From Nitrosopumilus ureiphilus (lineage in GTDB: Archaea > Thermoproteota > Nitrososphaeria > Nitrososphaerales > Nitrosopumilaceae), in contig NZ_CP026995.1 of the NCBI RefSeq assembly GCF_013407185.1, forward strand, positions 747,578-811,577: DNA of 64,000 bases, written 5' to 3'. A program made the translations under genes and the position numbers. The notes beneath the pieces were generated by a model that saw only the letters and a program-made list of their open reading frames with translations, ran no database searches and was not told the origin of the DNA. Positions 10,033 to 51,928 of the stretch are shown here, piece after piece; the stretch's first letter is position 1, and every line of letters starts with the position of its first letter.

Positions 10033-11727
10033 ATGAGTTGGTTAATCACGTTGGGCACAAAAATTAGTACATTATTCTTATTTGTAGTACTAGTTTTGGG
10101 CATGGCTGCTTATCCTTCCTCTATTAATCCAACTTTGTTTGAAGAATCTTCTTTTAATACTTCATTTCTAACAGCATTTGCCGAAGACGATGAGGAACGT
10201 GAAGACGATGAGGAACGTGAAGACGATGAGGAACGTGAAGACGATGAGGAACGTGAAGACGATGAGGAACGTGAAGACGATGAGGAACGTGAAGACGATG
10301 AGGAACGTGATGCCTCTAGGGCAATTGAAGATGCAATTGAAGAAATTGAAAGAGCAGAAATTAAAATTACTGAATCCCAAAATGATGGAAAGGAAACTTT
10401 ACTATCTGAAGAGAAATTAGATGATGCAAAAGATTTACTTGCACAGGCTGAGATTAGTTTTGAAAATGGAAACTTTGATGACGCTGAAGATCTTGCAGAA
10501 GAAGCAAAAGATTTAGCTTCTGAATCTAGAATGAAATCACTTGGAAAGTCATTGGAAGATTTTGAAAAAGAGACTGATGATGAAGATGAGTCTGAAATTG
10601 AGATTAAGGTAAAAATTGAAGACGGAACTGCAAAAATTGAAGCCGAATTTGGAGATGAAGAATTAGAATTTGAAATGGATTGGAGTGATGAGCAAACTAC
10701 AATTGATGAAATTGCATTAATAACTGGTCTATCGATAGAAGAAATTGAAAACTCTATCACTTTTAATTTTGATGATGGAGAGAAAGATGATGGAGAGAAA
10801 GATGATGGAGAAAAAGATGATGGAGAGAAAGATGAAGATAGAGAAGACGATGAAGATAGAGAAGACGATGAAGAACGAGATGAAGATGAGGAAGAACTTG
10901 AGATTGAGGTAGAAGTCAAAAATGACAAAGCCAAAATCAAGATTGAGTTAAATGATGATGATTATAGATTTGTACTCACAGATGATGTTTCAGAATCTGC
11001 AATAATTGCTGCAATAATGGATAAAACAGGATTAACAGAAGATGAAATTACTTCTAATTGGGAATTTGAAATAGAAGATGAAGAACGAGAAGATGAGGAC
11101 GATAAAGTTCAAGAAAATAATAGTGATTCACAGGTAAGAGACACAGTTAAAACTGAAAAACTGTTAAAACATGAAAATAAAGCCCAAGAAAATGCTGAAG
11201 AAACAATTCTTGAACTACAGCAAAAAATTGATCAACTCGAACAAAGATTACAAAAATTATTGGACAAATTTGAAACTGGAGAATACTTTGGTAAGGTAGC
11301 AGAACCCGATCCAGTACCTGACTCTTTTGTTATCGCCATAGATGGATTTGCCTCCTCACTTGACAGTGATGTGATAAGTAACATGGAAGGTGAGATTTTC
11401 TTAGAGTCTATTGTGACTGCAACAGAGTCTACCAAACTTCGTATTACTGGCGGTGAGATTCTAGTTGGAGACACTTTCTATGACTTTGTAATCGGAAAGG
11501 CCAGACTTTCTTCTTCTGGCACATCTGGTGAGAAAGACTCTATGATTCTACTGGGTCAAGTTATGGATGATCAAGGAAACGTCAATACCATTAGATTGTC
11601 CTTGGATGGAACAACTTCTCTTGGTGACTTTGGTTCAGAATCTGTAGACTTTGAAATCAATTCCTCACGAAGTAAGATTGCATCTCAATGGGGTTTTGAT
11701 GGTGTGGGATTATTGTCGACATTATAA
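10033..11727 (+). CDS. Exported highly acidic repeat protein
   Basis: A 564-residue protein with an N-terminal signal segment (about residues 8-50, hydrophobic LFLFVVLVLGMAAY then FLTAFAE). It is followed by seven copies of EDDEER, a helical region, and two copies of a domain of about 65 residues that share the pattern EIE(I/V)xVKxxxxKIxxEL...(I/L)TGL(S/T)xxEI (about 195-245 and 290-350), separated by GEKDD repeats. Then come a coiled coil (LELQQKIDQLEQRLQKL) and a C-terminal beta-rich domain. It is probably secreted or bound to the surface. The mass of Asp/Glu suggests binding of Ca2+, other metals or basic partners; this is inference. The family is not characterised. Confidence 0.75.
   Translation: MSWLITLGTKISTLFLFVVLVLGMAAYPSSINPTLFEESSFNTSFLTAFAEDDEEREDDEEREDDEEREDDEEREDDEEREDDEEREDDEERDASRAIEDAIEEIERAEIKITESQNDGKETLLSEEKLDDAKDLLAQAEISFENGNFDDAEDLAEEAKDLASESRMKSLGKSLEDFEKETDDEDESEIEIKVKIEDGTAKIEAEFGDEELEFEMDWSDEQTTIDEIALITGLSIEEIENSITFNFDDGEKDDGEKDDGEKDDGEKDEDREDDEDREDDEERDEDEEELEIEVEVKNDKAKIKIELNDDDYRFVLTDDVSESAIIAAIMDKTGLTEDEITSNWEFEIEDEEREDEDDKVQENNSDSQVRDTVKTEKLLKHENKAQENAEETILELQQKIDQLEQRLQKLLDKFETGEYFGKVAEPDPVPDSFVIAIDGFASSLDSDVISNMEGEIFLESIVTATESTKLRITGGEILVGDTFYDFVIGKARLSSSGTSGEKDSMILLGQVMDDQGNVNTIRLSLDGTTSLGDFGSESVDFEINSSRSKIASQWGFDGVGLLSTL
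10183..10308 (+). repeat. Seven perfect 18-bp tandem repeats
   Basis: The unit GAAGACGATGAGGAACGT is repeated seven times without a single mismatch, encoding EDDEER each time within the acidic exported protein. Perfect identity including third codon positions points to very recent expansion and likely length variation between strains. Confidence 0.95.
10771..10830 (+). repeat. Four 15-bp tandem repeats
   Basis: The unit GATGATGGAGAGAAA (DDGEK) occurs four times, with one G-to-A change in the third copy. It is followed by two 18-bp units encoding DEDRED. It separates the two copies of the duplicated domain in the acidic exported protein. Confidence 0.92.
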
Positions 11728-14419: not shown

Positions 14420-14444
14420 ACCTTGAATCTTTTTATAGATATGA

Positions 14445-14739
14445 GCGGAAAAACCCAACACCCTTTTAGGGTTGGGATGAAAGCGAACACAGCACAACTC
14501 AAAATAAAATACAATCAAATATTCAAATACTATACATGTGTAATTAATAACATGTTAGAGTTAGGCAAATACGGTCGTATCAATAATATGAACATGTACC
14601 ATTTGTTACGTAAAGCCGAAAATGGATTGTGTTCAGACATACTACTGCGGGAACCGCAGGAATGCACGCCTGTGGAGATCAGAAACTCGGTCGTTGAAGC
14701 AGGAAGAAGCCAATTGACTTTAGTCATTGGTAAGTTCAC
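14445..14739 (+). ncRNA. Solo omegaRNA-like element (IS200/IS605 right end), copy 1
   Basis: An element of about 295 nt that shares order and structure with 51285-51558. It begins GAGCGG, then hairpin 1 (14454-14476, arms CCCAACaCCC / GGGTTGGG) followed by ATGAAAGCGAACAC. Hairpin 2 is CTGCGG-GAA-CCGCAG (14645-14659). Hairpin 3 is CCAATTGAC-TTTA-GTCATTGG (14710-14730) preceded by GAAGCAGGAAG and followed by TAAGTTCAC. Stem bases differ from copy 2 while pairing is kept. A TATA-like tttttata (14430-14437) lies upstream. TnpB guide RNAs sit at the element's right end with a 3' hairpin directly before the guide. No tnpB is present here. A reading frame (14423-14752) overlaps it but is poorly supported beyond the shared 30 codons. 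Confidence 0.55.
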
Positions 14740-21437: not shown

Positions 21438-21483
21438 GTGAACTACCGCCCAACAAGTTGGATGGCCTCTTCTTGCTTCATTG
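21438..21483 (-). repeat. Possible third omegaRNA / IS605 right-end motif
   Basis: On the minus strand the sequence reads ATGAAGCAAGAAGAGGCC, a hairpin CCAAC-TT-GTTGG with outer CC/GG, then GGTAGTTCAC. This matches the 3' end of copies 1 and 2 (GAAGCAGGAAG, hairpin, GTAGTTCAC). The 5' hairpins of the element are not recognisable nearby. The same bases also code, in one frame, for a Cys-containing peptide beginning MVCGECKAFNEARRGHP, so a coding explanation is possible. Confidence 0.4.
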
Positions 21484-21634
21484 AATGCTTTGCATTCTCC
21501 ACAAACCATAGAGAGATACATTCGTGAGCAAGAAAAGTAGGCGATTCATGAACGGTACAAGTACGGGCGGTTTCTCGCCTGTAGATTATAAAAATTCAAT
21601 TAGATTCAATAGTGAGTTTAGAAATTTCTGTTGT

Positions 21635-26474: not shown

Positions 26475-27233
26475 CTATCTTTGCCTAATGGCTTTTCTTT
26501 TAGATTTAGTTATCTTTCTAGCTGGTTTTCTCTTTACCACCTTTTTCTTTGCAGCACTCTTTCTAGCTGGTTTTCTCTTTACCACCTTTTTCTTTGCAGC
26601 ACTCTTTCTAGCTGGTTTTCTCTTTACCACCTTTTTCTTTGCAGCACTCTTTCTAGCTGGTTTTCTCTTTACCACCTTTTTCTTTGCAGCACTCTTTCTA
26701 GCTGGTTTTCTCTTTACCACCTTTTTCTTTGCAGCACTCTTTCTAGCTGGTTTTCTCTTTGCAGTATTTTTCTTTTTTGATTTTGTTTCCTTGCTTTCTC
26801 TGAGATTTTTTAATTTCTCAATCTCATCTTGAATTATTTTGATCTCTTCGCGAATGTATTTTTGAGGGTTTAGTTTTGAATAAACAAAGTCAACAATTTT
26901 CAAATAATCTGCTCCTTTATCTGTACGAACTAAAAATAATTCATTAGAATTTATTGGAATGCTGATAATTGCAGCTTTTTCAAATTCTGTAATTGCAGAT
27001 CTTTCTTTTCCAATCTTATATGCCAAATTAGTATAGAGATCTCTTTTTTGTATAGAGTAATGAATCGACATTTTGACTTCATCGCCAACTAGTACTTGAT
27101 CAACATTTTCTTTATGTCCTCCAGCTACAATTTCTCCCTTAACATTTACCACTCCTGCAAATTTCACTTGTGGGAACAGATTGAGAACTTGTTTTGTTAA
27201 TTCGTTGTAATCAGCAGTCAATTTTTTCACCAT
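26475..27233 (-). CDS. Roadblock-like (DUF6659-type) protein with histone H1-like tail
   Basis: A 252-residue protein in two parts. Residues 1-125 match the stand-alone protein at 33969-34340 (shared VKMSIHY, YTNLAYKIGKE and PINSNELF), a small alpha/beta domain that I associate with the thaumarchaeal family DUF6659; it resembles roadblock-type regulators. After a charged helix the C-terminal 100 residues are Lys/Arg/Ala/Pro repeats of KRKPARKSAAKKKVV, like the tail of histone H1 or of bacterial HU variants, expected to bind DNA or RNA. The tail comes from five 45-bp repeats. The function is unknown; a nucleoid role is inferred. Confidence 0.7.
   Translation of the reverse strand: MVKKLTADYNELTKQVLNLFPQVKFAGVVNVKGEIVAGGHKENVDQVLVGDEVKMSIHYSIQKRDLYTNLAYKIGKERSAITEFEKAAIISIPINSNELFLVRTDKGADYLKIVDFVYSKLNPQKYIREEIKIIQDEIEKLKNLRESKETKSKKKNTAKRKPARKSAAKKKVVKRKPARKSAAKKKVVKRKPARKSAAKKKVVKRKPARKSAAKKKVVKRKPARKSAAKKKVVKRKPARKITKSKRKAIRQR
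26518..26760 (-). repeat. Five perfect 45-bp tandem repeats plus partial copy
   Basis: Copies begin at 26518, 26563, 26608, 26653 and 26698 and read without mismatch; a sixth partial copy starts at 26743. Each encodes the 15-residue unit KRKPARKSAAKKKVV in the H1-like tail. Identity at silent sites shows recent expansion, so repeat number probably varies among strains. Confidence 0.96.
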
Positions 27234-46361: not shown

Positions 46362-46435
46362 GGGATTGTGGTCTAGCTTGGTATGATTCTGCGTTTGGGA
46401 CGCAGAGATCGAGTGTTCAAATCACTCCAATCCCA
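46362..46435 (+). tRNA. tRNA-Pro (anticodon TGG)
   Basis: A 74-nt cloverleaf: acceptor GGGATTG/CAATCCC with discriminator A, anticodon stem CTGCG/CGCAG around TTTGGGA (anticodon TGG, codon CCA), and T arm GAGTG TTCAAAT CACTC. No intron or encoded CCA is required; the following bases are CCACT. The 3' region contains no long conserved genes until 47.9 kb. Confidence 0.95.
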
Positions 46436-46829: not shown

Positions 46830-46906
46830 TTCCTACGTATGCCTTAATACTGAAAAATTGCAAAAATATTCATGTCTTTAAGATATGTACCTTTAACAAC
46901 AAGCTC
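46829..46906 (+). repeat. Dispersed repeat, copy A
   Basis: Begins ATTCCTACGT and ends CTTTAACAACAAGCTC. The same two blocks, 70-85 nt apart, occur at 51773-51868, with weaker similarity between them (taAATAC..AAAA.TTG). Both copies lie in noncoding DNA and on the same strand. Possible small RNA, leader or worn element. Confidence 0.45.
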
Positions 46907-46952
46907 GGTCTGAAAAGTCAGGCTTTTAATCCTTTTATGATGATTTCACTTA

Positions 46953-47030
46953 ATGTCCTTCTTCTTGTTAAAGAAAAAACGACTCAGAACATGGGGTGAA
47001 AAACTTGCCCGTATTTTTAATAAAATATGA
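46953..47030 (+). CDS. Possible 25-residue basic peptide
   Basis: ATG 46953 opens MSFFLLKKKRLRTWGEKLAR with a short tail before TGA. It is basic and amphipathic like a small RNA- or membrane-binding peptide. It is too short to judge coding potential. Confidence 0.35.
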   Translation: MSFFLLKKKRLRTWGEKLARIFNKI

Positions 47031-47063
47031 TTGGTTAGTTACAAAATTTGAATTGGCATCAAC

Positions 47064-47300
47064 TTAGTCAGTATGTTTTTTACCATCCCTATATTTTCCA
47101 CTGTCTATGTCTTCAAAGACAAATTCGATGGATGCAGTATAATCATAGGGATTTACTATATTGTCCCCAAGTGATATTGCTTTTCCAACTGAGTCATATG
47201 CAATGCCATGTTTATCTCCATATGGTTTAGCAAATGCAGGATTAATAACAAAAATTAAACTTGCAAATACAATTATTCCCAACAGAAATTTGGAATTCAT
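47064..47300 (-). CDS. Small exported protein
   Basis: A 78-residue protein with a clear signal peptide (MNSKFLLGIIVFASLIFVIN, cleavage after AFA) and a polar mature part of about 50 residues rich in Asp/Tyr/Gly. ATG 47300 is chosen; earlier in-frame ATG codons only add polar residues. The family is not known. Confidence 0.65.
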   Translation of the reverse strand: MNSKFLLGIIVFASLIFVINPAFAKPYGDKHGIAYDSVGKAISLGDNIVNPYDYTASIEFVFEDIDSGKYRDGKKHTD

Positions 47301-47571
47301 CGCAACCATACTCATTCTGAAACGTTTTAGTTTTGTCTTTTAAACATGTCTGGGTTTCATACTATATGACTTACATAGAATAGTAAAAGTCATCAGCATC
47401 ACAAATTCGATTTATTTTTAGAAGTCAGATCGATTATCCTTTTTGCGGAATAGAATTGTCTTGGTCAGGAATAATCAATCGCTAATGTTGGCTATAGTTC
47501 ATCCTCAAATCTGAAATCTAAATTTTTAGAATATCATGTCAATAAAGAATCAATATTTTTTCATTATTTTA

Positions 47572-47649
47572 TGGACACCAAATCTCAACAGATTCATGTC
47601 CATGTAAGAATAAAATTTACGTATAATCATTTAGATCTGTTGAGGTTTA
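47572..47649. repeat. Nested inverted repeat, left side of cassette
   Basis: ATGGACA (47572) pairs with TGTCCAT (47598), enclosing AAATCT/AGATT. In addition AAATCTCAACAGAT (47581-47594) pairs with ATCTGTTGAGGTTT (47636-47649) with one G-T pair. The core AAATCTCAACAGATT recurs at 50013-50027 right of the cassette. Confidence 0.6.
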
Positions 47650-47730
47650 GAAAAACAATAAATGATTGACTTTGATTTAAGATATAGTACAAGGGCCTCC
47701 TAGAAATCATCAAGATTTCACTCATTTGTA

Positions 47731-47753
47731 GATCAGAACAGATCCTTCTGATC
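47731..47753. promoter_or_regulatory. Hairpin/palindrome GATCAGAA-TTCTGATC
   Basis: A perfect 8-bp inverted repeat with a 7-nt spacer, 126 bp upstream of the cassette start codon. It could be an operator for a dimeric regulator or a terminator stem; no T-run follows, which favours an operator. Confidence 0.45.
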
Positions 47754-47878
47754 CATTTAAAATGACAATATCTTTAAAACATTATAAATTAATCATAATT
47801 TAACATTGTGCTGTAAACATAGATACTTGATATCATGTAATATGAAAATAATAAATACTATTACTTTCTATAGGTGGC

Positions 47879-48556
47879 ATGCCAAATCCAGGACAAGAAC
47901 TTTCTAGTATAGATTTTGAATCAATGTTAGGTGGACCATTAGTTGCAGTAGTTAAAGCACAAGCACAAGCAGCCATGTCAAGTGTAAATTTTATTAAAGA
48001 AGTAGGTTTCAAAAAGAAACCAGCAGATCAACAAGATTCTGAATCTTTTGAAACAGAAGAACCAATTTATGTCAAATTCAAATATTGGAAGGAAACAAAA
48101 CCATATGAACCAGCAGTACCTGCAAATCCTGGAGATTCAGCTGCTTCCCCACCAATTCCATCTTCCCCCCTAATACCAGCTTCACCTGCAGAATACCAGC
48201 AACACGATTTAGAGGTTCCAATTCTTACTATGCTTCCAATCCCATTCATTCGGATGGAAGAAACCACAATTGATTTTAATGCAAAAATAAACTCGGTTGA
48301 ATATCAATCTACAGATACAAATTTCAAAATCAATGCCTCTCTTGAAGCAAAAGCAGGATGGCTTTGGGGATCTGCCAAACTAAAAGTTTCTACCTCATAT
48401 CAACGCAAAACATCTCAGGGCAGTGAAGTGAATAGAACTTATTCAATGGCAGTACATATCAAAGCAGTTCAAGATGAAATGCCAGCCGGAATGGAAAGAA
48501 TACTTGGTATTTTAGAGGATGGAATAAGAGCAACTCCAAATAATGTCACTGCTTAA
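47879..48556 (+). CDS. DUF2589-type protein, first gene of an unknown cassette
   Basis: A 225-residue protein. The N-terminal ELSSIDFESMLGGPLVAVVK and QAQAAMSSVNFIKEVGF follow the DUF2589 pattern; then a Pro/Ser-rich linker (about 75-110), a beta-rich domain (FNAKINSVEYQST; LKVSTSYQRKTS) and AVHIKAVQDEMPAGMERIL near the end, again typical of the family. No signal peptide is seen. DUF2589 has no established function. A good Shine-Dalgarno (AGGTGG) precedes the ATG. Two further genes follow with spacings of 32 bp and -1 bp. Confidence 0.68.
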   Translation: MPNPGQELSSIDFESMLGGPLVAVVKAQAQAAMSSVNFIKEVGFKKKPADQQDSESFETEEPIYVKFKYWKETKPYEPAVPANPGDSAASPPIPSSPLIPASPAEYQQHDLEVPILTMLPIPFIRMEETTIDFNAKINSVEYQSTDTNFKINASLEAKAGWLWGSAKLKVSTSYQRKTSQGSEVNRTYSMAVHIKAVQDEMPAGMERILGILEDGIRATPNNVTA

Positions 48557-48588
48557 AACTGACTAAAATGTGATATTTTTGTTTAGAT

Positions 48589-49290
48589 ATGGTTAACCTA
48601 AATGAAGTAATAGCAACTATTCTCAGTGATTTGGCACTTGCACGTGTACAGGCAGATATCGAATCAATAAAAATTGCAGAGACATACGCTAATGATCCCC
48701 TTCTCAAGAATTTATCCATACCAAGAATGAGATTAAGAAGTGTTTCAATATCATTACCTGTTGCCATTGACAAAGTTGATGAGAGGAAAATTGCAGAATC
48801 AAAAAAACCAATCAGTAGAAATGAGTTACTTCAGGTTACACAAAATTCTTTTGAAAATACTATATCTAAAAGAAAATTATCGATGTCTAGAAATGATTCG
48901 GATAAAATAAAAAAATCCCTCGGAAGAAAAATTATACTAGTTGAAAAAGAACTGCCATGGATTATGAATGATGCAGTCACATTATCAAATGTCATATCTA
49001 ATGAAGTTGGAAATAAATTAGAAGATGTAAGGGTGGCAGAAGGTAAAAAACTAACTAGTGTAGAATTGAGAGAAACAATTGATGAGATTAAATTAGATTT
49101 GAAGAGAGGAATTTCAAATCTACGAAGACCTCCCAATTTAGAAGTGTCTGTAAATACCGGGGAGTTAAAAAATATGTCGCCAAAAGAGACTCTTGCGGGT
49201 TTTAATTTAACCATAGATGAAGATGGAATGGAATGGTCTACGTGGGAATCAAATTCGGGTGTTGTAAAAAAACAATTGGTGCCTGAATAA
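48589..49290 (+). CDS. Second gene of the DUF2589-type cassette
   Basis: A 233-residue protein of unknown family. The N-terminus (LNEVIATILSDLALARVQAD) is helical and again has the LALARVQAD phrase that echoes the DUF2589 start, followed by beta-like RMRLRSVSISLPVAID, then a long Lys/Glu helix region and a beta-rich end (NLTIDEDGMEWSTWE). It may be a structural partner of the first protein. Its last base is the first base of the next start codon. Confidence 0.6.
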   Translation: MVNLNEVIATILSDLALARVQADIESIKIAETYANDPLLKNLSIPRMRLRSVSISLPVAIDKVDERKIAESKKPISRNELLQVTQNSFENTISKRKLSMSRNDSDKIKKSLGRKIILVEKELPWIMNDAVTLSNVISNEVGNKLEDVRVAEGKKLTSVELRETIDEIKLDLKRGISNLRRPPNLEVSVNTGELKNMSPKETLAGFNLTIDEDGMEWSTWESNSGVVKKQLVPE

Positions 49291-49886
49291 TGTTAAAAAT
49301 TAATTATCGTACATATGAAAAACTTGTTTTGGTTTCAAATCAAGTACCACAACTTGTAGATTTGTATGAACAAAGAAATGGTATATTTACAGAATCTGTA
49401 AAATTATGGCTAAAAAATGTAGAAAAAATTTTCAAAGAAGCCAAATCAACTAAAGCCTCTGAGTTTTCAACATTAAGACTGATGATTTTATCGGGTGAGA
49501 GAGGGGTAATAAAAAATGACTCTAGTTCAGGACATATTTCTAAGAGAAAATTCGTTGATGGGCTAGGTATTCAGGCATTAACCCAAAGTCAAAATAATCT
49601 TCAACCTATTCTTAGTAGATCTGAAGAAGAATTTTCTCAATACAAACAATTAATTCGAAAGATGTTTGCAGTAGCATCGGATTCGGAATTTATTGATAAA
49701 ATTCCTAAACATTTTACTACTTTTGATATTTCATTTTTTTGGAAAAATTTTCTTTCTGATCCTATCACATCTAGCTGGGCTTCTAGAATTCTTGAATCTG
49801 CAAGTTATTCAGATACAATTATTTTGGTTAACGAAGTTTTAGATGAATTAAGAAAGGAACAAAAGCAAATGATGATGAAAAAATAA
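49290..49886 (+). CDS. Third gene of the DUF2589-type cassette
   Basis: A 198-residue, mostly helical protein with no known motif (YEKLVLVSNQVPQLVDLYEQ; LMILSGERGV; SWASRILESASYSD). Its start overlaps the preceding stop (TAATG), so translation is coupled. No signal peptide or membrane helix. It ends 127 bp before the right inverted repeat. Confidence 0.6.
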   Translation: MLKINYRTYEKLVLVSNQVPQLVDLYEQRNGIFTESVKLWLKNVEKIFKEAKSTKASEFSTLRLMILSGERGVIKNDSSSGHISKRKFVDGLGIQALTQSQNNLQPILSRSEEEFSQYKQLIRKMFAVASDSEFIDKIPKHFTTFDISFFWKNFLSDPITSSWASRILESASYSDTIILVNEVLDELRKEQKQMMMKK

Positions 49887-50430
49887 AATTTGATGTTTGA
49901 AAAATTTAAAATTTTGAATCTCAATCCAGATGTTTGTTTAGAATTAAGATTCAACCCACAACAAATATGATCGTTGAATAAAGTTATGATAAAAATCTGA
50001 CGCTAAATGATCAAATCTCAACAGATTTGAATTGTATGGACCGTTGAGGGTTTGAATTCTGGTTTTCATTTTTTCTAAATGAAATCGTCTTAAAATATTC
50101 TGCCGAAATTAATTGATTGTAGTAATTTTATCAAATGTTGTCAAGATGTGGCTTGGGATAGTTAGAAAATCATACTCCAGATTGAGATAATGAACTATTT
50201 GAGATCAAGAAAGGACAAAAACTATTGTGTGAGGCTATTCAATTCAATGGCAAGTTTCTTTCTGTTTATTGTGTCTATAATTTTTCTTCTTTATTTAGAA
50301 CAATGACATTTTCTAGTTTATTTTTCAAAGGTGTATCTATCATGTGTCCTATACTGTCTTCATCTTTGCACATGACAGAATGTCCCAGTAATACTTGGGA
50401 TGTATCATATTTTCATCTCAATTACTTGAA
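49887..50430. other. Noncoding region right of the cassette
   Basis: Contains the inverted-repeat element at 50012-50054. A frame of 25 codons with a hydrophobic centre (50229-50306, GTG start) is possible but unsupported. Otherwise AT-rich and without a gene I can name. Confidence 0.5.
50012..50054. repeat. Inverted repeat, right side of cassette
   Basis: CAAATCTCAAC (50012-50022) faces GTTGAGGGTTTG (50043-50054) with AATCT-CAAC-AGATT as inner hairpin. The 15-nt core AAATCTCAACAGATT is identical to the left element at 47581, and TATGGAC also recurs. This suggests the pair belongs to one element or a repeat family. Confidence 0.55.
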
Positions 50431-50769
50431 TTATCTGGAAAATAGTTTTGCGAAAAAGGATTTCTTTTTTACATATGTGGGAATCTTTTCTGTTTTTGTA
50501 TTTTGTTTACTAATAATTTCGTCAAGAACTTCATCTGAAATTAGGGTTTTGTGACTACTTTCTTTTGGTTTTGTCGTTTTGACTGTATTTCCTTGCAATC
50601 TGCGTATTCTATGTTCAAGTTGCTCAGTCATAGATTCTAAAAATACCCTATCTGTTTTGTAAAGCGGTCTGTTTTTTTCTATACATTCTAAAATAAATCT
50701 TAATCTACCTTCATCCCCCATTCCTGAATTAAGAAGATCAGTTGCCATTGTCTTATAATCTAATTTCAA
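50431..50769 (-). CDS. Hypothetical protein with charged helical domain
   Basis: A 112-residue protein. The N-terminal half (GDEGRLRFILECIEKNRPLY, then TDRVFLESMTEQLEHRI) is a helical motif that I associate with several thaumarchaeal proteins, where it precedes variable tails. The C-terminal tail is basic (VKKKSFFAKLFSR). No enzyme motif is seen. It lies between the cassette and the tnpB relic. Confidence 0.6.
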   Translation of the reverse strand: MKLDYKTMATDLLNSGMGDEGRLRFILECIEKNRPLYKTDRVFLESMTEQLEHRIRRLQGNTVKTTKPKESSHKTLISDEVLDEIISKQNTKTEKIPTYVKKKSFFAKLFSR

Positions 50770-50976
50770 TTTTTTATTTGGTTAAAAATTTACTAATAAC
50801 TCTTTCATTTTTGTATGTGCTTTACAGAAATATATCCTTGAAATTAAAATATATGTTGACGTAGAAAATCCACAATAATTAAATTATAAAACAATCAAAA
50901 TTAAATTGACTATGCAAACCCTAGGAGAGGTTCGCGAGCTTTTAGGTAAGGCATTGTCATTTAGGGTTCTGTCGGG

Positions 50977-51283
50977 TTATCGAGACCCATACTTTGACAC
51001 ATCGACTATCTGGATTACCACATCATCATAATTTGATGTGTTGGGTTCCGACATCCGTGAAAAAAGTTCACTTGTCGCTTCACCTGTATCCACTCTAGGA
51101 TGGGTAAACCTAGCCCACCCCTTGTAGGCAATGTTCAATGACGCTACAATGTCCCTGTCCATTGATTTCCTACAATTATTGCACCATAGTTTTCGCCTGT
51201 GTTCCTTGTCATCTTGGATTTTTTTTCGCATACTGGACAAAGTTTGCTGGAATTCCTTCCCACTTACTCTTATGGAATGTGAG
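50977..51283 (-). pseudogene. tnpB: TnpB (IS200/IS605 OrfB) C-terminal relic
   Basis: The minus strand encodes the TnpB end: LCPVC (one frame), then after an A8 run (51219-51226) LWCNNCRKSMDRDIVASLNI and AYKGWARF in the next frame, followed by an unusual tail ending DVSKYGSR. CxxC plus CxxC is the TnpB zinc finger and the Asp of DRDIVAS is the last RuvC residue. A second frame change near 51255 separates HSIRVSG. The N-terminal two thirds are absent: at about 51283 the sequence switches to the omegaRNA-like element, which points the other way. TnpB is an RNA-guided nuclease; this copy is dead. Confidence 0.75.
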
Positions 51284-51284
51284 C

Positions 51285-51558
51285 GGGAAAACTCAACCCT
51301 TTAGGGTTGGGATGAAAGCGAACACACCACAACTCAAAACAAAACACAATCAAATATTCAAATACAAGATGCGTGTAAGAAAACCAATGACATATGATAC
51401 CACAGGAACTGTGGGAATCATCAAAATACAAACGCCTGAGTCTGAAAAGACAGTCCCCGACCAAGGGATGTGAGAGCCACAACCACAAATGTCTGCGAAA
51501 GCAACTTTGAGGCTCGATGAAGCAGGAAGCCACGATGCTTTAGCGAGTGGTAGTTCAC
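51285..51558 (+). ncRNA. OmegaRNA-like element (IS200/IS605 right end), copy 2
   Basis: Same architecture as 14445-14739: GAGCGGG, hairpin 1 CTCAACCC-TTTA-GGGTTGGG (51292-51311), ATGAAAGCGAACAC, hairpin 2 CCACAG-GAA-CTGTGG (51400-51414), then GAAGCAGGAAG, hairpin 3 CCACGATGC-TTTA-GCGAGTGG (51530-51550) and TAGTTCAC. The stems differ from copy 1 but pair fully or nearly so. The sequence after TTCAC (gtggttacaaaattaagaat) would be the guide if it is an omegaRNA. It sits head-to-head with a tnpB relic, not downstream of it. Confidence 0.6.
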
Positions 51559-51928
51559 GTGGTTACAAAATTAAGAATATAGGCTAAGCATCTACTGACT
51601 TCTTAGACCTATCTTTAGAATTAATCCAATTTTGTAATATCGATAAGGACAAGATTATCTTCAAAACATCATCTTGAATTCAAAAAAAAACTTGATCTAC
51701 CCGAGTCAGTTACGAACTAAGACTATTGTTTCTTAAAATGGAGATATTTTTGATGATTTTGAATAAAGGATCATTCCTACGTTGTCTCTAAATACCAAAA
51801 AGTTGTAAATTACGCATGATAAAGCCGCAAAAAGTCAGATATTTGAGGTCAACTTTAACAACAAGCTCAACTTTTCCTCAATTTCATTCTAAAAAGAGTC
51901 CTATATTCAATCAAATCAGGAAACAACA
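51559..51928. other. Noncoding region before the lamin-tail protein
   Basis: Holds dispersed repeat copy B (51773-51868) and the likely promoter of the large surface protein. No gene is seen. Confidence 0.5.
51773..51868 (+). repeat. Dispersed repeat, copy B
   Basis: Shares ATTCCTACGT at its start and CTTTAACAACAAGCTC at its end with 46829-46906, same strand, spacing 96 against 78 nt. It ends about 60 nt before the ATG of the 1097-residue protein, so it may be part of that gene's leader. Confidence 0.45.

Follow-up and report, generated by a model that had tools for sequence, protein, structure and literature searches.

The element at positions 51274-51558 (+) of the window, the 64,000-nucleotide stretch of DNA that was analysed, is classified from its sequence as a tnpB-less IS605 derivative, a palindrome-associated transposable element (PATE), carrying an omegaRNA. 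It very probably inserted antisense into a tnpB gene of another lineage, which later lost its 5′ part. The classification follows from the repeat family to which the element belongs, its ends, a match to an omegaRNA core, and a structure that covaries among copies.

The element, its copies and its relatives

The host genome is a 2.17-Mb single-contig archaeal chromosome of Nitrosopumilus. The element has the following features:

51269-51273 (+): target pentamer CTTAT, directly 5′ of the left end and within a tnpB relic, identified by alignment of all copies
51274-51558 (+): tnpB-less IS605-type element of PATE family 1, 285 bp, with left end GGAATGTGAGCGGG and right end GGTAGTTCAC
51294-51309 (+): left-end hairpin CAACCC-TTTA-GGGTTG, read from the sequence and like the hairpin in the tnpB-bearing element L049 and other copies
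51395-51558 (+): omegaRNA-like scaffold, from a match to covariance model R1 (51397-51558) and covariation in 16 tnpB-less copies
51530-51550 (+): right-end hairpin CCAC...GTGG (helix 7), with 2 of 8 pairs changed on both sides
51559-51578 (+): presumed guide position, the flank immediately downstream of the right end, which differs at every copy; its role is suggested by known TnpB systems

A search of the genome with this element gave 32 matches at E≤0.001, of which 12 span its whole length. PATE family 1 thus comprises 12 full copies of 92-96% identity and one split copy, and shorter relatives are also found in the same genome. The repeat was found in none of the 60 relatives searched (36 of the same genus), and the exact family 1 core had no match in a collection of genome contigs that may lack the host genome itself or those closest to it. 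At locus L055 (G000:C1:1616387-1619037) an IS6-family element has split a family 1 copy, and the 8-bp sequence ACACAATG is duplicated.

When the copies were aligned together with their flanks, the left boundary fell after a TTTAT-like pentamer and the right boundary after the shared right end; the flanks themselves are unrelated to each other and lack a target duplication. The pentamer precedes most copies, with consensus TTTAT, and since TTTAT has a frequency of only 0.24% per position in the window, its presence there is not due to chance. Both IS605 ends, with near-terminal palindromes, are present, and they are common to L049 and other copies. Neither a Y1 nor a TnpB domain was found inside the 285 bp, and no family 1 copy in the genome has a cognate tnpB within 1.5 kb. 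Two ends, a fixed short motif on the 5′ side, no duplication and no transposase gene are what characterises PATEs and other non-autonomous IS200/IS605 elements. As its own tnpB is absent at the 3′ end, family 1 was filed as a stand-alone derivative and not as a canonical omegaRNA locus. Short open reading frames within the elements were set aside as proteins; several copies have stops in them, and the RNA structure covaries.

Two further elements of this kind were found in the window:

14437-14739 (+): sister tnpB-less element, PATE family 2, with an omegaRNA core at 14642-14739 found by R1
21438-21587 (-): third tnpB-less element, 150 bp, with a core at 21438-21532 found by R1 and a degenerate first hairpin

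The sequence-only reading had described the element at 51274-51558 as a second omegaRNA-like copy; the copy is real, but the window holds three cores, the third being that at 21438-21532 (-). Family 2 has eight copies in the genome, and tnpB-less relatives occur in another Nitrosopumilus and in Nitrosotenuis genomes, again with no tnpB within 1.5 kb. The tnpB-less guide-RNA elements are therefore not a quirk of one strain. The left ends of the third element and of PATE family 3 (loci L014-L016) are of the same type as in L248, a complete type C IS605 element of a congener (G065) that encodes a Y1 TnpA and a divergent TnpB. The suggestion that the RNA element had become independent of tnpB is supported: no cognate tnpB lies beside any of the 12 near-identical full copies, and tnpB-less relatives occur in other genera.

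Elsewhere in the window, perfect in-frame tandem repeats were seen in an open reading frame at 10183-10344 (18-bp unit coding EDDEER) and in the lysine/arginine-rich tail of another at 26513-26820 (45-bp unit).

The omegaRNA scaffold

Rfam at the gathering threshold reported only two tRNAs in the window, and relaxing the E-value yielded nothing more than a gltS match below threshold. As no omegaRNA match was obtained, a covariance model of our own was required. The TnpB zinc-finger domain has 12 matches in the genome, whose tnpB genes fall into three types, here called A, B and C. Type C proteins have OrfB_IS605 and TNB domains; the gene is intact at L048 and frameshifted at L049 and L050. A motif of the form CCGCAGGAACTGCGG...ACGCCTG...GAAGCAGGAAG...GGTAGTTCAC lies on the same strand as type C tnpB and overlaps the 3′ end of the reading frame.

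Model R1, which contains three hairpins with 20 pairs, was trained solely on eight type C 3′ ends that are linked to tnpB. In this training set 92% of cells are paired and there are 13 double changes, compared with 4.9 in shuffles; a fourth helix, CYTG/CARG, is paired in every sequence. R1 matched the family 2 core (E 4.4e-13), the third core (E 6.5e-11) and the core of the element studied here (E 9.8e-6, 34.8 bits), as well as practically all other PATE copies in the genome. The last of these scores is modest because the central domain is unlike every tnpB-linked form found. From 5′ to 3′, the scaffold consists of hairpin 1, a CCTG/CAGG core stem, an enlarged central domain, the GAAGCAGGAAG linker, the right-end hairpin and TAGTTCAC. 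PATE families 1 and 3 have the enlarged domain in place of the second hairpin.

An alignment of 16 tnpB-less sequences from these two families (A3) gave a 45-bp fold in which 98.3% of cells are paired, compared with 31-40% in slid controls. Nine pairs have changes on both sides, and 33 double-change cells were counted against 8.6 in shuffles, counts that shared ancestry of the copies partly inflates. A model of the enlarged form (R3), run on 300 genomes of the order, mainly detected short-form cores where a tnpB gene on the same strand ends; the enlarged form itself was found only in the genome studied here. The models recover same-strand tnpB 3′ ends beyond the training set. The cores of 51274-51558 and of 14437-14739 are homologous, in sequence and in structure, to the RNA at same-strand tnpB 3′ ends.

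The ends of IS605 elements are recognised as DNA hairpins, and these elements are mobile repeats. The conserved structure might accordingly be only a single-stranded DNA substrate of the IS605 transposase, and the element a pure transposition parasite that uses no guide RNA. The absence of an intact Y1 transposase from the genome, in which only a 35-aa Y1 relic was found, also fits this view, as the copies may now be immobile and could be fossils. We consider it rather unlikely, since conservation and covariation reach approximately 150 nt inward of the right end over seven helices, far exceeding an end hairpin and matching the tnpB-linked scaffold. Moreover, the 52-bp terminal-only PATE described in Haloquadratum walsbyi (PMC3119063) suggests that the internal region is dispensable for mobility.

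The tnpB relic and the history of the junction

The sequence to the left of the element and the block containing both have these features:

46891-51868 (no strand assigned): 4.96-kb lineage-specific block with relic and PATE, bounded by a 16-bp direct repeat, CTTTAACAACAAGCTC
50965-51273 (-): C-terminal part of a type A tnpB, a frameshifted relic (tblastn to L043/L047, 69% over 84 aa)
50965-50988 (-): type A terminal inverted repeat, GGTTCTGTCGGGTTATCGAGACCC on the plus strand, matching the L043/L047 element ends

It had been proposed that the omegaRNA-like element (+) and the tnpB relic (-) diverge from a common junction, and this layout stands: a covariance model derived independently from tnpB-linked ends finds the RNA, and the RNA lies in a dispersed repeat. 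The junction, placed earlier at about 51283, is at 51273/51274, and the element begins right after CTTAT. The relic has a frameshift near 51225, so that KSKWEGIP and the zinc-finger half that follows it (SSKLCPVC) are in different frames; the KSKWEGIP residues extend up to 51273, and the 3′ side finishes in the relic's own type A inverted repeat. Homology to tnpB runs to the last bases before the PATE and then stops. A search of the flank to the right of the PATE found no trace of tnpB, and this flank is single-copy in the genome.

The relic had been taken for an IS605 tnpB, which does not hold. Intact type A and type B elements end in IS6-like inverted repeats and not in IS605 left and right ends, their reading frames stop 10-15 bp before these repeats, and an alignment of type A with type C proteins covers only 53 aa, at 34% identity. 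The type C RNA motif is absent from type A and B copies, intact ones included; the earlier remark that the 3′ side of the relic lacks the motif is thus true, but uninformative. As the relic belongs to the type A lineage, with IS6-like inverted repeats at its element ends, it was never the parent of the RNA at 51274-51558.

In several genera, elements of types A and B lie between inverted repeats of the form GGTTCTG...CAGAACC, in some copies with 8-bp duplications, like the IS6-family DDE transposase element of the same genome. In a fixed-motif test for IS6-like ends, 8 of 14 type A/B loci passed compared with 0 of 10 type C loci. TnpB (guided_TnpB, NF040570) is the sole gene of an inverted-repeat element at the following loci:

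L043, 1850-3118
L044, 2335-3585
L055, 2610-4970
also L141, L142, L144, L146 and L147

The repeats of these elements are 20-24 bp long, and target duplications of 8 bp are perfect at L043, L044 and L147. The dead tnpB next to the PATE thus represents a TnpB lineage on archaeal elements with ends in the style of DDE transposons. No prokaryotic precedent for TnpB in inverted-repeat (DDE-type) elements was found in the literature searched, and in archaea this combination seems not to have been described there; among eukaryotes, Fanzor proteins carried by inverted-repeat transposons offer a parallel (PMC10711439, PMC3627910).

These results bear on how the layout arose. An inversion that brought together the halves of a single tnpB element and turned the RNA away from its own gene would account for the head-to-head arrangement and for the lost 5′ part of the gene, and had been raised before. 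It is highly improbable: the RNA is of the type C/IS605 lineage while the relic is type A with IS6-like repeats, and the RNA element has both ends intact and a normal target pentamer in place. The head-to-head layout is an ordinary nested insertion. An IS605-family element would have lost its transposase and tnpB while keeping both ends and the omegaRNA scaffold; this PATE would then have inserted 3′ of CTTAT, antisense, into a type A tnpB with IS6-like inverted repeats; and a later deletion, or PATE-PATE recombination, ending at the right end of the PATE would have removed the 5′ part of the gene. Insertion into tnpB is well supported and a later loss of the 5′ part is required by the data, and the order of the two events is only inferred because no relative offers an empty site with intact tnpB. 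L051 is a comparable composite, in which a fragment from the 3′ side of type C lies antisense within a partly deleted type A gene.

Alternatively, the PATE landed exactly at the broken end of an already truncated relic, or PATE-PATE recombination, and not a simple deletion, swapped its flanks. The single-copy right flank without tnpB trace would fit either history, and a mosaic test of this copy found sites near the left end, only two in number, that resemble other copies. Both are rather unlikely, as a truncation coinciding with a target would be improbable and no reciprocal junction of a flank swap was found among the other copies.

Seven congeners have an empty site with one copy of the 16-bp repeat. 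As relatives lack the whole 4.96-kb block, comparison of empty sites at the exact junction is uninformative, and a continuous plus-strand tnpB in the same arrangement, named earlier as an observation that would refute the first reading, was not found. The block lies near a tRNA gene (46362-46435) and carries a DUF2589 protein and three open reading frames without family matches.

Possible function and comparison with known systems

By homology to characterised TnpB systems, each RNA would take its guide from the flank 3′ of the right end, and the TTTAT-like pentamer would serve as target-adjacent motif (PMC8612924, PMC10097598). The only intact type C tnpB, L048 (G000:C1:1665515-1666684), has kept its right end and RNA; it has no recognisable left end, and so may be immobile yet intact. 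Its TnpB could act in trans on PATE RNAs. Our tentative proposal, which may well prove wrong, is that Nitrosopumilaceae maintain stand-alone TnpB guide RNAs: more than 20 tnpB-less elements in one genome would express flank-guided omegaRNAs served in trans by one TnpB, and the family with the enlarged domain would represent a novel omegaRNA architecture, which originated once linkage to tnpB had been lost. At 51274-51558, the RNA would be transcribed with its 3′ flank as guide, and its use by L048 would favour retention or restoration of the element where it has inserted. Provided that the RNAs are made, RNA-only transposons could direct a single TnpB to more than 20 genomic sites. This would provide a natural test of omegaRNA action in trans and of possible protection by TnpB of elements that have lost its gene.

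Altae-Tran et al. are said to have described stand-alone, trans-acting omegaRNAs for IscB in 2021; these would likewise be guide-RNA loci without an adjacent nuclease gene, although for another nuclease family. In the ISDra2-type IS200/IS605 omegaRNA (reRNA; PMC8612924, PMC10097598) a same-strand 3′ scaffold ends at the right end and the flank is the guide, an arrangement that position and structure suggest for the PATEs. Unlike the ISDra2 type, 51274-51558 has no tnpB and has a larger central domain.

PATEs are known from haloarchaea and Halanaerobium, nested insertions included (PMC3119063, PMC7290912). Those of Haloquadratum walsbyi are, like family 1, short and transposase-free, with near-terminal palindromes and no target duplication, and likewise originate by deletion of the core of an IS605-type element, reach high copy number and are often nested with mobile elements; their omegaRNA content is not described in the part of that account considered (PMC3119063), whereas here, in an ammonia-oxidising archaeon, the scaffold is kept and covaries. 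A PATE-like element of Halanaerobium hydrogeniformans combines a left end with the final 58 nt of tnpB and a complete right end, which is the guide-RNA stretch (PMC7290912). It is a single copy for which the same part of the source describes no RNA analysis, compared with 12 full copies and several families here. What the present elements add to the known PATEs is evidence that omegaRNA scaffolds persist and covary in whole families that lack tnpB, including one in which a domain is enlarged.
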